A stretch of 54,093 bases of DNA from an uncultured Pelagibacteraceae bacterium (lineage in GTDB: Bacteria > Pseudomonadota > Alphaproteobacteria > Pelagibacterales > Pelagibacteraceae). Below are positions 16,453 through 49,132 of this stretch, in pieces. The notes under the pieces were generated by a model, which was not told the DNA's origin, made no database searches, and was given only the letters and a program-made list of their open reading frames with translations. The stretch covers positions 1-54,093 of the forward strand of contig CACONH010000006.1 of NCBI GenBank assembly GCA_902628495.1, in the 5' to 3' direction. The position numbers were made by a program, and so were the translations under genes. Numbering within the stretch: position 1 is the stretch's first letter; the number at the start of each line of letters is the position of its first letter.

Positions 16453-17580
16453 GTGAACAAATCTTTAAATAGTTTAGGCTTAATGAGTGGCACTTCTGGT
16501 GATGGTGTTGATGCCTCGGTAATCAATTCTGATGGCAAAGGATATTACAAAGTTTTGATAAATAAATACTTTAAGTATTCAGATGAAATTTCACAAAATA
16601 TCTACAAATTAAAAAGAAATATTAATAAAATTGACGATGTAAAAATATTTAGCACAGAAATCAATGATTTAGAGAGAAAAATTACCTTATTCCATTCGAA
16701 TGTTGTGTCAGAGTTTACAAAAAAAAAGGATTTTGGAATAGATTTAATCGGATTTCACGGGCAAACAATATTACATAGTCCAAAAAACAAATATTCAAAA
16801 CAACTTGGTGATGGTAACTTACTATCTCAACTTTCAAAAAAAAAGGTTATTTTTAATTTTAGACAAAATGATTTATTTCAAGGCGGGGAGGGAGCTCCTT
16901 TGTCACCAATCTTCCATCAATTAATTGTTAAAGAAAAAAAAATTGATCTGCCAGTTTGTATTTTAAATATAGGTGGAATATCTAATTTAACTTTAATTAA
17001 GGATTTTAAGCAAGAAAGTTTAATAAGCAAAGATATTGGTCCTGGAAACTGTTTAATTGATGAATGGATAAGACGAAATAAAAAAGGTAATTTCGATAGA
17101 AATGGAGAATTTGCAAGTCAGGGTAAGACAAATAAATTAATACTTGACCAAGCTTTTGATGATTTTGAAAATATTCCAGTTAATAATTTAAACTCTTTTG
17201 ATGTAAACGATTTTGAGATAAATTTTTTAAGAGGCCTTGATTTAGAAGATGGTGCTTCAACCATTACTGATTTTACAAGCAAAATTATTGCTAGCAATTT
17301 GATAAAGATAATTTCAAAACATAATCAAAATATTTCTAGAATAATTTTATGCGGAGGAGGTAGAAAAAATAAAACATTAATCGAAAGAATTAAAAGAAAT
17401 AGTCATAATAAATTAGAATTTCAAACAACAGATGATTACAAAGTTGATGGTGACTTTGTCGAGTCCCAGGCTTTCGCATTTTTAGCTATTCGATCTTTTT
17501 TAAAACTCCCTATATCTTTTCCTAATACAACTGGATGCAAATTACCTTCAACAGGCGGTGTTTTAGTAAAAAACTTTTAA
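16453..17580 (+). CDS. anmK: Anhydro-N-acetylmuramic acid kinase
   Basis: AnmK hydrolyses and phosphorylates 1,6-anhydro-MurNAc recovered from cell-wall turnover, giving MurNAc-6-phosphate. The 375-residue protein shows the family signature LGLMSGTSGDGVDASVI at the N-terminus, the GFHGQTILHSP block, GEGAPLSPIFHQ, LNIGGISNLT, and the C-terminal ESQAFAFLAIRSFL plus TTGCKLPSTGG segments. Translation starts at GTG 16453; the signature follows at residue 7, which fixes the start closely. The gene ends with a 4-base overlap with the convergent hydrolase. It implies peptidoglycan recycling, consistent with mrcA nearby. Confidence 0.95.
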   Translation: MNKSLNSLGLMSGTSGDGVDASVINSDGKGYYKVLINKYFKYSDEISQNIYKLKRNINKIDDVKIFSTEINDLERKITLFHSNVVSEFTKKKDFGIDLIGFHGQTILHSPKNKYSKQLGDGNLLSQLSKKKVIFNFRQNDLFQGGEGAPLSPIFHQLIVKEKKIDLPVCILNIGGISNLTLIKDFKQESLISKDIGPGNCLIDEWIRRNKKGNFDRNGEFASQGKTNKLILDQAFDDFENIPVNNLNSFDVNDFEINFLRGLDLEDGASTITDFTSKIIASNLIKIISKHNQNISRIILCGGGRKNKTLIERIKRNSHNKLEFQTTDDYKVDGDFVESQAFAFLAIRSFLKLPISFPNTTGCKLPSTGGVLVKNF

Positions 17581-18233
17581 AATAAAGCAGATTCTTTTTG
17601 TATATACTTATCTAAAACTTTTCTTAGATTATTTTCAGATTTAGTAAAAAAATGATTAGCATCAGGTACAGATTGAAAATCAACTTTTATACCTTTTTGT
17701 GAAGATAATCTTTTATTGAGTTCATTAATATGATCGATTGGAACAAGTTCATCTTTTTTTCCATAAACCATTAATCCTGAAGTTGGGCAAGGTGAAAGGA
17801 AAGAAAAATCATATACATTAGGTTGAGGTGATATTGAGATAAATCTATTTATTTCTGGTCTTCTCATAAGTAATTGCATTGATATTAGTGATCCGAAAGA
17901 AAAACCAGCAACCCAACATTGTGAGTTATCAAAATTTTCTCTCTCAACCCAATCAAGTGCAGCCGCTGCATCAGCTAATTCACCTTGACCATTATCAAAC
18001 TCTCCATCACTTTTTCCAACACCTCTAAAATTAACTCTGCATACAGAAAAACCATTATCCATAAATGCATGAAATGTTTCTACTACAACTTTGTTATTCA
18101 TTGTACCTCCATATTGAGGATGAGGTTGTAATACTAAAGCGATGGGAGAAGTTATTTTTTGATTTTTATAATATTTTGCTTCTAATCTTCCAGCTGGACC
18201 AGGAATAAATATTTCTACAATTTTATTTTCCAT
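17577..18233 (-). CDS. COG2945-type alpha/beta hydrolase
   Basis: This 218-residue hydrolase begins with IFIPGPAGRLEAKYY and has the blocks LQPHPQYGGTMNNKVV, CRVNFRGVGKSDGEFD, the nucleophile elbow GFSFGS (Ser near residue 117), a distal Asp segment and DANHFF with the expected catalytic His. Substrate is unknown; relatives are often annotated as serine aminopeptidase-like or dienelactone-hydrolase-like. Its start lies about 10 bases from a Fur-like box and faces the iscR-suf operon, so it may share iron-linked control. The gene end overlaps anmK by 4 bases. Confidence 0.9.
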   Translation of the reverse strand: MENKIVEIFIPGPAGRLEAKYYKNQKITSPIALVLQPHPQYGGTMNNKVVVETFHAFMDNGFSVCRVNFRGVGKSDGEFDNGQGELADAAAALDWVERENFDNSQCWVAGFSFGSLISMQLLMRRPEINRFISISPQPNVYDFSFLSPCPTSGLMVYGKKDELVPIDHINELNKRLSSQKGIKVDFQSVPDANHFFTKSENNLRKVLDKYIQKESALF

Positions 18234-18242
18234 ATTTGTTAA

Positions 18243-18257
18243 TGATAATTATTCTCA
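18243..18257. promoter_or_regulatory. Fur-like iron box, copy 1
   Basis: TGATAATTATTCTCA differs from the 7-1-7 Fur core TGATAAT-N-ATTATCA at one base. It is part of a 23-base direct repeat (18235-18257) whose second copy begins 32 bases downstream. It lies 10 bases from the hydrolase start and about 140 bases before iscR. The match is by consensus only; other Fur-family proteins (Irr, Mur) bind similar sites. Confidence 0.5.
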
Positions 18258-18274
18258 AAAAAAATTTTTGTTAA

Positions 18275-18289
18275 TGATTATTATTCTCA
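18275..18289. promoter_or_regulatory. Fur-like iron box, copy 2
   Basis: TGATTATTATTCTCA is the second copy of the repeated element (whole repeat 18267-18289). It keeps the ATTCTCA half exactly and differs from copy 1 at one base of the 15. The 32-base offset is about three helical turns, so two dimers could bind the same DNA face. Confidence 0.45.
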
Positions 18290-18346: not shown

Positions 18347-18371
18347 AAACTTGACTATTTTAGTCGGGTAT
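18347..18371 (+). promoter_or_regulatory. Type-1 IscR operator upstream of iscR-suf
   Basis: The left half AAACTTGACT and right half TAGTCGGGTAT are separated by ATTT. Against the enterobacterial type-1 IscR consensus (left ATASYYGACT, spacer RWWW, right YAGTCRRSTAT) 24 of 25 positions agree. It covers the likely -35 hexamer of the operon promoter, as in E. coli iscR, which suggests autorepression by the [2Fe-2S] form of the regulator encoded 28 bases downstream. Confidence 0.85.
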
Positions 18372-18398: not shown

Positions 18399-18821
18399 AT
18401 GAAGCTAAATACTAAATCGAGATATGCTGTAATGGCTCTTGCTGACATGGCTGTTTTTTCAAGTGATAATGCAGTCAGTTTGAGAGATATTTCATTAAGG
18501 CAAGGCATATCTCTTCTTTATTTAGAACAAATATTTTTAAGATTAAAAAAAAATAATATAGTAAAAAGCGTCAGAGGAATTAATGGTGGATATATACTTG
18601 TTAAAAGTCCTAAAGAATTAAAAATTTCAGACATACTACTAGCATTAGATCAAAAAGTTAAAACAATAGGATGTAAAAAAGATTCTAAGAAATCTTGTAA
18701 TGGTAAAAGCACCAAATGTATCACACACGATTTCTGGGATGAATTAGATATTCATATAAACAGTTTTTTTGAAAACAAAAAATTAAGTGACTTACTAAAA
18801 AATAGAGAGGCTAGAATATAA
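18399..18821 (+). CDS. iscR: Rrf2-family Fe-S regulator IscR
   Basis: This 140-residue winged-helix regulator opens with MKLNTKSRYAVMALADMA, has the Rrf2 helix-turn-helix block ISLLYLEQIFLRLKKNNIVK and the wing VRGINGGYILVKSP. The cluster-binding region contains three Cys and one His (GCKKDSKKSC, then CITH), the Cys3-His set that binds [2Fe-2S] in IscR; the spacing between the first two Cys is slightly longer than in E. coli. It leads the suf operon, with sufB starting at the next base after its stop. A near-perfect type-1 IscR box overlaps its promoter, so it most likely senses Fe-S status and represses its own operon. Confidence 0.93.
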   Translation: MKLNTKSRYAVMALADMAVFSSDNAVSLRDISLRQGISLLYLEQIFLRLKKNNIVKSVRGINGGYILVKSPKELKISDILLALDQKVKTIGCKKDSKKSCNGKSTKCITHDFWDELDIHINSFFENKKLSDLLKNREARI

Positions 18822-20258
18822 ATGAGAGATAAACAAATAGAAGATTTAAAAGATTACAAATATGGTTTTTCAACCGATATTGAAAGTTTTAAAGCTCCAA
18901 AAGGATTAAATGAAGATGTAATTAAGTTTATATCAAATATTAAAAAAGAACCTAAATGGTTGTTAGATTGGAGACTTAAAGCATTTGAAAGACTAAAAGT
19001 TTTAAAAGAACCAGATTGGCAAAAACCAAAATACCCAAAAATAGATTATCAAGACCTGTATTATTATTCAGCTCCAAAAAGCTTTAAAGATAAACCAAAA
19101 AGTCTTGATGAATTAGATCCAAAATTACTTGAAACTTATCAAAAGTTAGGAATTCCACTTAATGAACAAAAAAGATTAAACGGAATTGCCGTTGATGCAG
19201 TTTTCGACTCTGTTTCTGTAGCCACAACTTTTAAAGAAACCTTAACAAAACAAGGGATAATATTTTGTTCAATTTCTGAAGCTGTTCAAAAACATCCAGA
19301 ATTAGTAAAAAAATATTTAGGCACAGTTATACCTTTAACAGATCATTTTTTTGCAACACTTAACTCAGCAGTCTTTACTGATGGATCATTTGTTTATATT
19401 CCACCAGGAGTAAGATGTCCTATGGAATTATCAACATATTTTAGGATTAATGCATCTGACACAGGTCAATTTGAGAGAACTTTAATCATTGCTGATAAAG
19501 GAAGTTATGTAAGTTATCTTGAAGGATGTACTGCACCAATGCGGGATGAAAATCAATTACATGCTGCTAATGTTGAACTTATTGCATTGGATGATGCGGA
19601 AATAAAATATTCTACTGTTCAAAATTGGTACCCGGGAGACAAAGACGGAAAAGGTGGAATATATAATTTTGTAACAAAAAGAGGATTATGTAAAGGTAAG
19701 AATTCTAAAATTTCTTGGACACAAGTTGAAACTGGCTCCGCAATTACTTGGAAATACCCGAGCTGTATTTTAAAAGGTGATAACTCAATAGGTGAATTTT
19801 ATTCAATTGCTATTACTAACAATCATCAAAAAGCTGACACAGGTACAAAAATGATACACCTTGGAAAAAATACAAAGAGTAAAATTATTTCAAAAGGTAT
19901 AAGTGCAGGTTTTTCAGACATGACATATAGAGGGCTAGTAGATATTTCCCCAAAAGCTACAAATTCAAATAATTTCACTCAGTGTGACTCGTTATTAATG
20001 GGAAATAAGTGTGGTGCACATACAGTTCCATATATTAAAAATAAAAATTCAGACTCTAATATTGCTCATGAAGCAACGACGTCAAAAATTAGTGAGGAAC
20101 AATTACATTATTGTCAACAAAGAGGATTAAATCCTGAAGAAGCAGTTGGACTAATAGTAAATGGTTTTTGTAAAGAAGTATTACAACAGTTGCCAATGGA
20201 GTTTGCAGTCGAAGCTCAAAAACTAGTAGGGATTAGTTTAGAAGGAAGTGTTGGGTAA
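18822..20258 (+). CDS. sufB: Fe-S cluster assembly scaffold subunit SufB
   Basis: SufB (478 aa) is the main scaffold subunit of the SufBC2D complex that builds Fe-S clusters. Typical blocks are [12 protein letters not shown]-type (here [15 protein letters not shown]), [40 protein letters not shown], the beta-helix core [20 protein letters not shown], and the C-terminal [20 protein letters not shown]. Length is normal. It follows iscR with no spacer and its stop overlaps the sufC start by one base. Confidence 0.97.
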
Positions 20259-47933: not shown

Positions 47934-47976
47934 ATCAACACTTCTGGATGCGATTTTATCTCATTGGAATTTTTTA

Positions 47977-48001
47977 AAATCCTACTAAATAAGTCGGGTA
48001 T
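47977..48001 (+). promoter_or_regulatory. Second type-1 IscR-like box at the alternative oxidase start
   Basis: The right half AAGTCGGGTAT is nearly identical to the operator upstream of iscR (TAGTCGGGTAT). Over the full 25-base consensus 21 positions agree. It overlaps the ATG at 48000 by two bases. A TACTAA (47983-47988) within the box could be a -10, placing the transcript start near the ATG and making the mRNA leaderless; that part is speculation. Confidence 0.55.
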
Positions 48002-48704
48002 GAACGAACTAGATAAACATTTTGAGCCACAAAACTTTAGCGATAAGGTTGCTTTAGCTTTTACTAAATTTTTAAGGTTTTTAGCAGATACTTTTTTTAA
48101 AAAAAGATACGGCCACAGAGCTGTAGTTTTAGAAACAGTTGCTGCAGTACCTGGAATGGTAGCAGGAATGCTAATTCACCTAAAGTCTTTAAGGAAAATG
48201 GAAGATGACAGAGGATGGATTAAAACTTTATTAGACGAAGCTGAAAATGAAAGAATGCATTTAATGACATTTATACATGTTGCTAAACCAACTTGGTTAG
48301 AAAGAGCTATAATTTTGATAGCACAATTTATTTTTATAATTACTTATGCAATCATCTATTTGATATCACAAAGAACTGCCCACAGGATAGTTGGTTATTT
48401 TGAAGAAGAAGCAGTAAGAAGTTACACAGAATATCTGCATGAGCTTGAAACCGGTAAAATAGAAGATCAACCTGCACCAGAGATTGCAATAAATTATTGG
48501 AATTTACCTTTACATTCAACTCTAAAAGATGTTGTAAAAGTCATAAGAGATGATGAGGCTGGCCATAGAGATGTTAATCATAACTTTGCTGATGTTATCG
48601 ATACTAGATCAAGAATTCAAAAAAGTGCAGATATTGAAAAAAAAGAGAAAATGAAAAAAGACGAAATTAAAGAAAATGATCAGGACCTAAATAAAATAAA
48701 ATGA
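48000..48704 (+). CDS. aox: Alternative oxidase (cyanide-insensitive ubiquinol oxidase)
   Basis: AOX passes electrons from ubiquinol to oxygen without pumping protons. The protein has 234 residues from ATG 48000 ([13 protein letters not shown]); a TTG at 47964 would give 246. The diiron ligands lie in [11 protein letters not shown] (Glu), [10 protein letters not shown] (Glu and His), [15 protein letters not shown] (Glu) and [12 protein letters not shown] (Glu and His), and two membrane-dipping helices lie at GMVAGML and [15 protein letters not shown] type-1 IscR-like box overlaps the start codon, so expression may respond to Fe-S status. It overlaps the flavodoxin gene by 4 bases. AOX is uncommon in bacteria but known in marine alphaproteobacteria. 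Confidence 0.94.
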
Positions 48705-49132
48705 AAAACTTAAATATTTTATGGGCCTCAATGGGTGGTACTGCTGAGAATGTAGCTAATCTTTTAAACGATAAAGCCTCAAAAATGGGTTTTAATACAA
48801 ATCAACAAGAACTTAATGAAGTAACGATGAGTAACCTTGCAAAGATGGATAACGTAGCAATAATAACATCAACAACAGGCGAGGGAGATCTACCAACAAA
48901 TGGCGAAGACTTTTGGCTTGATTTAAAAGATACTGATGTAGATCTAAAAAAATTGTCATACAGTGTTTGTGCACTAGGAGATAGATCTCATGAAACCTTT
49001 TGCGGTGCTGGAAAAAAAGTTGATGAAAAACTTCTTCAATTGGGTGCCAAAAAAATTCTTGATAGACAAGATTGCGATGGATCGGATGAGGGATCTGAAG
49101 AGTGGGGAAATACCCTTTTAAGCAAGTTTTAA
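48701..49132 (+). CDS. Flavodoxin domain protein (MioC-like)
   Basis: This 143-residue protein is a single flavodoxin domain. The FMN phosphate-binding loop is [15 protein letters not shown] near the N-terminus, followed by [17 protein letters not shown] and [20 protein letters not shown]. It lacks any reductase fusion. MioC-like flavodoxins carry electrons to partners such as biotin synthase. A 4-base overlap with aox suggests coupled expression. Confidence 0.9.

Follow-up and report, generated by a model that had tools for sequence, protein, structure and literature searches.

The window, by which we mean the whole 54,093-nt stretch of DNA analysed here, comes from contig CACONH010000006.1 of GCA_902628495.1, an uncultured Pelagibacteraceae (SAR11) genome that is 92% complete (hereafter G000). 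Towards its end, on the forward strand, a gene for an alternative oxidase (aox; 48000..48704, 234 amino acids) is followed by a flavodoxin gene of the MioC / CysJ FMN-domain type (48701..49132, 143 amino acids), the start of which overlaps the aox stop by 4 nt. The aox product belongs to PF01786 (Pfam AOX, 2.4e-84) and matches solved mitochondrial alternative oxidases with a best value of 3.6e-51; its LETVA, NERMHL, EEEAV and DEAxHRxVNH segments, which we take to be the four di-iron motifs of AOX, align with a solved mitochondrial AOX. The flavodoxin, which the original prediction overlooked although it is the next gene after aox, matches Pfam Flavodoxin_1 (9.7e-29). It passes no NCBIfam cut-off; its matches to the CysJ FMN domain (9.3e-28) and MioC (1.7e-25) profiles both fall under theirs, and it is closer to MioC and to the FMN domains of CysJ and cytochrome P450 reductase than to FldA, for which the best model gives 47.8 bits against a cut-off of 175.

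A putative IscR type-1 operator, AAATCCTACTAAATAAGTCGGGTAT, lies at 47977..48001 on the forward strand, where it overlaps a putative −10 element, the ATG of aox at 48000 and the point at which transcription probably begins. The original prediction had described this 25-mer, its overlap with the ATG, a right half identical to that of the operator at iscR and agreement with the type-1 consensus at 21 of 25 positions, and all four points hold. The shared right half, AGTCGGGTAT, is found at 47992–48001 and again at 18362–18371, within the putative operator of iscR-suf (AAACTTGACTATTTTAGTCGGGTAT; 18347..18371, forward strand); these two copies in the window compare with an expectation of 0.02. Scored against the consensus, for which we assumed the E. 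coli form, the iscR site reaches 24/25 and the aox site 21/25, and the next best sites in the window other than iscR reach 19/25. We also scored the window with a matrix derived from 17 distinct iscR operators of this genus; it placed the aox site next after iscR, but with low scores, 11.7 bits in one orientation and 7.4 bits in the opposite one, compared with 40.6 bits for iscR and 4.1 bits for the runner-up.

The regulator that would read such a site is encoded in the same window. The iscR gene (18399..18821, forward strand; Pfam Rrf2, 8.3e-32) is followed directly by a sufB-like gene (18822..20258, forward strand; Pfam SUFBD_core, 8.4e-77). The best family for its product is TIGR02010 (IscR), at 149.2 bits and under the cut-off of 207.55. 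The cluster ligands are Cys92, Cys100, Cys107 and His110; this Cys3His set is present in 55 of 56 SAR11 IscR alignments (49 distinct sequences), the other being cut short, and the equivalent of E. coli Glu43, a residue important for DNA recognition, is glutamate in all 56 (again 49 distinct). This iscR is the one Rrf2 gene found in the 92%-complete genome. Given that this sole gene adjoins suf and that its product matches IscR (5.9e-44) far better than NsrR (5.4e-09), control of aox by NsrR is disfavoured. A site scoring 21–25/25 stands about 50 bases before iscR in all 50 genus-side loci (repeats included), whereas none of six iscR loci from the order's other family showed this operator form. 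In the iscR operator of the window, a −35-like hexamer, TTGACT, forms part of the left half. Between iscR and a divergent hydrolase gene (17577–18233) we also observed two Fur-box-like repeats, TTAATGATAATTATTCTCA and GTTAATGATTATTATTCTCA (window 18236–18289), so that Fur as well as IscR may act on this region. In another genus of the family, two loci (L165 and L155, from G309 and G263) carry an IscR-like box, ACTAAAATAGTCAGGTAT, and then TGATAATCATTATCA, which we take to be Fur-like, before an iron-binding-protein-like gene that we likewise assume to resemble SfuC/FutA (SBP_bac_6 at 1.9e-18 for L165), a hint that in this genus iron uptake, too, comes under IscR.

How much of this resemblance could arise by chance was gauged across the genome. 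AGTCGGGTAT occurs three times, at iscR, at aox and inside a coding sequence read as pyrC-like (L001), with two occurrences in the reversed control. Allowing up to two mismatches, the 21-base core of the operator is found at iscR and aox only; at up to three mismatches, three further places appear (6 in total), against 4 in the reversed control. Shuffles of the window yield 0.02 cores per 54 kb at up to two mismatches, which scales to about 0.4 per genome. Because these control and shuffle rates are not far below the matches, the match in a single genome is only suggestive; the box exceeds chance because it sits on the start codon and is conserved in related loci. A search of 20 genomes with the pattern ACT-N5-AGTCRGGTAT gave 22 listed matches, every one at iscR or aox, and the reversed pattern gave none in all 20. 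Both sites were matched in G000, G034, G425, G532, G655 (= G669) and G671. In G670 the pattern matches at iscR only, because its aox box reads GTTGGG (locus L068). Among 12 boxless genomes, seven have one site, at iscR, and five have none; three of those five (G280, G243 and G472) carry an iscR operator of slightly different letters, scoring 24/25 each, and in the remaining two (G009 and G017) no Rrf2 gene was found.

To place the box in its evolutionary context, we compared aox loci gathered from the best 80 of 557 matches and from 30 of 89 match rows; among the matches listed, the close aox relatives of the window are SAR11. The 146 loci with aox reduced to 115 distinct ones, and 82 entered the counts after duplicates, loci with fewer than 60 bases upstream, those with a non-ATG start at the aligned position and those below 72% identity were left out. 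Most loci from the order's other family and most non-SAR11 matches lie outside this set, and an ATG at the position equivalent to 48000, present in all 82, was a condition of entry. The box stands at the same place against the ATG in 7 of the 82 loci (G000, G034, G425, G532, L067 (= G655), L068 and L069), with L068 (GTTGGGTAT, one change, GTTGGG) counted by choice; the exact box gives six. All seven also carry the flavodoxin; of the 75 boxless loci, eight carry it and 67 do not. The original prediction had named aox orthologues as the test of the box. At the level of the clade that test went partly against it, the box being absent from 75 of 82 loci, whereas within the seven it is strongly conserved. 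Scored at the fixed position, for distinct loci with at least 74% identity, the seven reach 18–22/25 and the other listed loci at most 15; at other places within 150 bases upstream, boxless loci score up to 18/25, as high as L068. The left half of the box is imperfect in the window (CCTACT), reads CATACT in three box loci that score 18–19/25, and reads CCGACT in the diverged locus L069, giving CCGACTAGATCAGTCGG, a nearly perfect palindrome at 22/25.

Conservation at the box stands out from its surroundings. Over positions −8 to −1, mean pairwise identity among the seven box loci is 0.964, compared with 0.512 at fourfold sites of aox and 0.494 over −75 to −45. The same eight positions have an identity of 0.605 in boxless sister loci (18 of 20 picked, two being duplicates), against 0.606 at their fourfold sites, which corresponds to neutral drift. 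Six of the eight boxless loci with a linked flavodoxin give 0.458 against 0.64. One way to explain the conserved bases is that aox starts further upstream, at a TTG at 47964, so that they encode LLNKSG. In the window, the reading frame that begins at 47964 is open, and so is the same frame over the 36 bases before the ATG in five of the other six box loci. The sixth, L069, has an in-frame TAA upstream of the ATG, which contradicts coding as the explanation for the upstream conservation. In addition, among the five loci that retain all of LNKSG, not one letter differs in the codons CTA AAT AAG TCG GGT, whereas about half of the fourfold aox sites have changed. We therefore regard an upstream start as highly improbable.

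The promoter itself is shared far more widely than the box. A putative −35 element, TTGGAA (47964..47969, forward strand), is identical in all seven box loci, and a putative −10 element, TAAATA (47986..47991, forward strand), follows 16 bp from it and 8 bases before the ATG. The original prediction had proposed TACTAA as the −10; we set this aside for TAAATA, the part that is also found in the boxless sisters. Mean identity of the −35 is 0.88–1.0 across the box, sister and flavodoxin-linked boxless groups, and that of the −10 is 0.905 in the seven box loci, 0.912 in the 18 sisters and 0.944 in the six flavodoxin-linked boxless loci; the box locus L069 has TAGATC at this position. When the best TATAAT-like hexamer was sought without a fixed position, it fell at scattered places across the 82 loci. 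Because all three groups conserve the −35 and −10 and only the box loci conserve −8 to −1, the promoter appears to be general and the box to be kept only where it is present.

These comparisons also bear on the idea that the bases are retained as core promoter or initially transcribed sequence and resemble an IscR box by accident. Such a reading would account for the −35 and −10 conserved in every group, and the 0.4 two-mismatch cores expected per genome leave room for coincidence. It fits poorly with the 18 boxless sisters, in which −8 to −1 drift neutrally behind the same −35 and −10, with L069, which has moved nearer to the IscR palindrome rather than further from it, and with the exact identity between the right halves of the aox and iscR sites. 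An accidental likeness is thus quite unlikely in our judgement, and we continue with the box as an IscR operator.

The position of TAAATA implies a transcript start at about 47998–48000, and therefore the aox mRNA is probably leaderless. A Shine-Dalgarno-like 4-mer is found in 0 of the 82 aox loci; this adds little to the case, because only 8 of the 47 ORFs in the window have one. An upstream element, TTTAKCNCATNGNAATTT, occurs once in the window, and we make no claim on it because shuffles give 1.91. Separately, an element like TTTAGCNCATAGTAATTT or GCGCATGTTAAAAT lies at about −45 to −28, over the −35 region of many boxless SAR11 aox promoters, and may be the site of another regulator or an unusual −35.

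Given that the flavodoxin gene adjoins aox downstream in all seven box loci, the target of the box would be an aox-flavodoxin operon, the two overlapping genes presumably being co-transcribed. The flavodoxin is far rarer than the oxidase: among 399 sampled genomes of the genus, aox was found in 87 and this flavodoxin in 9, and by coordinates all nine adjoin aox. Outside the genus, G038 has a 51%-identical flavodoxin on a different contig from its aox. Three boxless loci that are nested with the box loci (L030, L033 and L085) have instead a cupredoxin-like gene that overlaps the aox stop and replaces the flavodoxin, a call that rests on Pfam for L030, and in these three the right half of the box is decayed. 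We considered whether this sublineage had lost IscR. No Rrf2 gene was found in any of its three genomes (G017, G009 and G677, respectively), but a full sufB was not found in them either, and G677 has only a weak SufD-like match at the very start of a contig. As this may reflect an assembly gap, we dropped the idea as evidence; the three genomes, one of which is 92% complete, may share an assembly break or have a diverged suf locus.

The history of the box involves few independent evolutionary events. A paired test of box against flavodoxin on the tree gave a median p of 0.5, with two independent pairs on supported branches and hence no power. Trees in which AOX of the box loci forms one clade were not rejected, either for the seven alone (p-AU 0.131) or together with the three boxless relatives (p-AU 0.352), and the box loci may share one origin. 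The flavodoxin tree places them on one side of a branch with support of only 56/12.

Taken together, these data make it likely that the box is a working type-1 operator through which holo-IscR represses the aox-flavodoxin operon and from which a shortage of Fe-S clusters releases it. When clusters are plentiful, [2Fe-2S]-IscR would occupy the box and keep RNA polymerase away, much as at the promoter of iscR-suf itself; by analogy with iscR, holo-IscR should block initiation because the site spans −10 to +2. Under iron limitation, oxidants or NO, IscR would lose its cluster and let go of the box, and the released cell would make AOX and the FMN flavodoxin together with the SUF machinery. AOX would then take electrons from ubiquinol, bypassing both the bc1 complex, with its Rieske Fe-S protein, and the heme cytochrome oxidase, and the flavodoxin may take the place of a ferredoxin. 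AOX had been put forward as a heme- and copper-free oxidase, which is right as to heme and copper and does not make it iron-free: it is a di-iron enzyme that needs two irons. Its use would therefore spare Fe-S clusters and heme while still drawing on iron.

IscR might also bind the box and act in another way, with apo-IscR as repressor or activator, or with the flavodoxin as the main object of control and AOX a passive partner. In Caulobacter, the parts of the report available to us propose that apo-IscR represses fixK and likely activates riboflavin genes (PMC11475020). At the SAR11 locus, a site of type-1 form that spans the putative −10 to +2 occupies a repressor position, and the motif likewise overlaps the −35-like hexamer of the iscR promoter in SAR11, both of which make these other modes unlikely and leave repression by holo-IscR as the preferred reading.

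In operator form and in its Cys3His regulator, the system resembles the autoregulation of IscR in E. coli and Caulobacter. It departs from isc/suf autoregulation in its target, a terminal oxidase with a flavodoxin, and in the placing of the box over the start codon of an mRNA that is probably leaderless. Holo-IscR represses its own operon, as described in the sections seen of PMC11475020. From the same sections, an alphaproteobacterial IscR influences terminal oxidase operons in Caulobacter too; the route there is through fixK and heme oxidases, with no aox named and the word 'flavodoxin' appearing 0 times in the text seen. The nearest precedent in the portions of the literature available to us is NsrR control of aox in Vibrio fischeri (PMC1274295, PMC5156696, PMC8115020; Rodionov 2005, and Dunn 2010 through other papers), likewise a bacterial aox under an Rrf2-family regulator. 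Regulator and signal (NO) are different in V. fischeri; at the locus described here, the one Rrf2 gene found is IscR-like, the operator is that of iscR, and the operon includes a flavodoxin. The original prediction knew of no description of the link; this stands for IscR and aox, for which we recognised none among the matches listed from open-licence literature, seen in part, and it has to be qualified by the V. fischeri NsrR papers already in print. Ca. Pelagibacter ubique responds to iron limitation by inducing suf and sfu (PMC2864753, seen in part), which fits a released IscR regulon; the main text of that paper contains 0 words beginning with IscR, flavodoxin or oxidase.

We see evenly balanced chances for a fuller version of this model. 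In it, IscR would control two targets, suf and aox-fld, and at Fe-S shortage both respiration and electron carriage would pass in a single step to proteins free of Fe-S. One short sequence would act at once as −10, as operator and as the point where translation of a leaderless mRNA begins, and the sister lineages would have kept the promoter and not the switch. The portion seen of PMC5156696 treats the purpose of bacterial AOX in surface waters of the ocean as an open question. The proposed operator would link AOX to the Fe-S status of the cell in a marine group that is among the most abundant, and the box with its linked flavodoxin offers a genomic marker for use in metatranscriptomes, beside suf and sfuC. 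This link suggests that an Fe-S-sparing respiratory response is built into a very small regulon, and that one sensor may switch a small SAR11 lineage to electron transport that needs little Fe-S.
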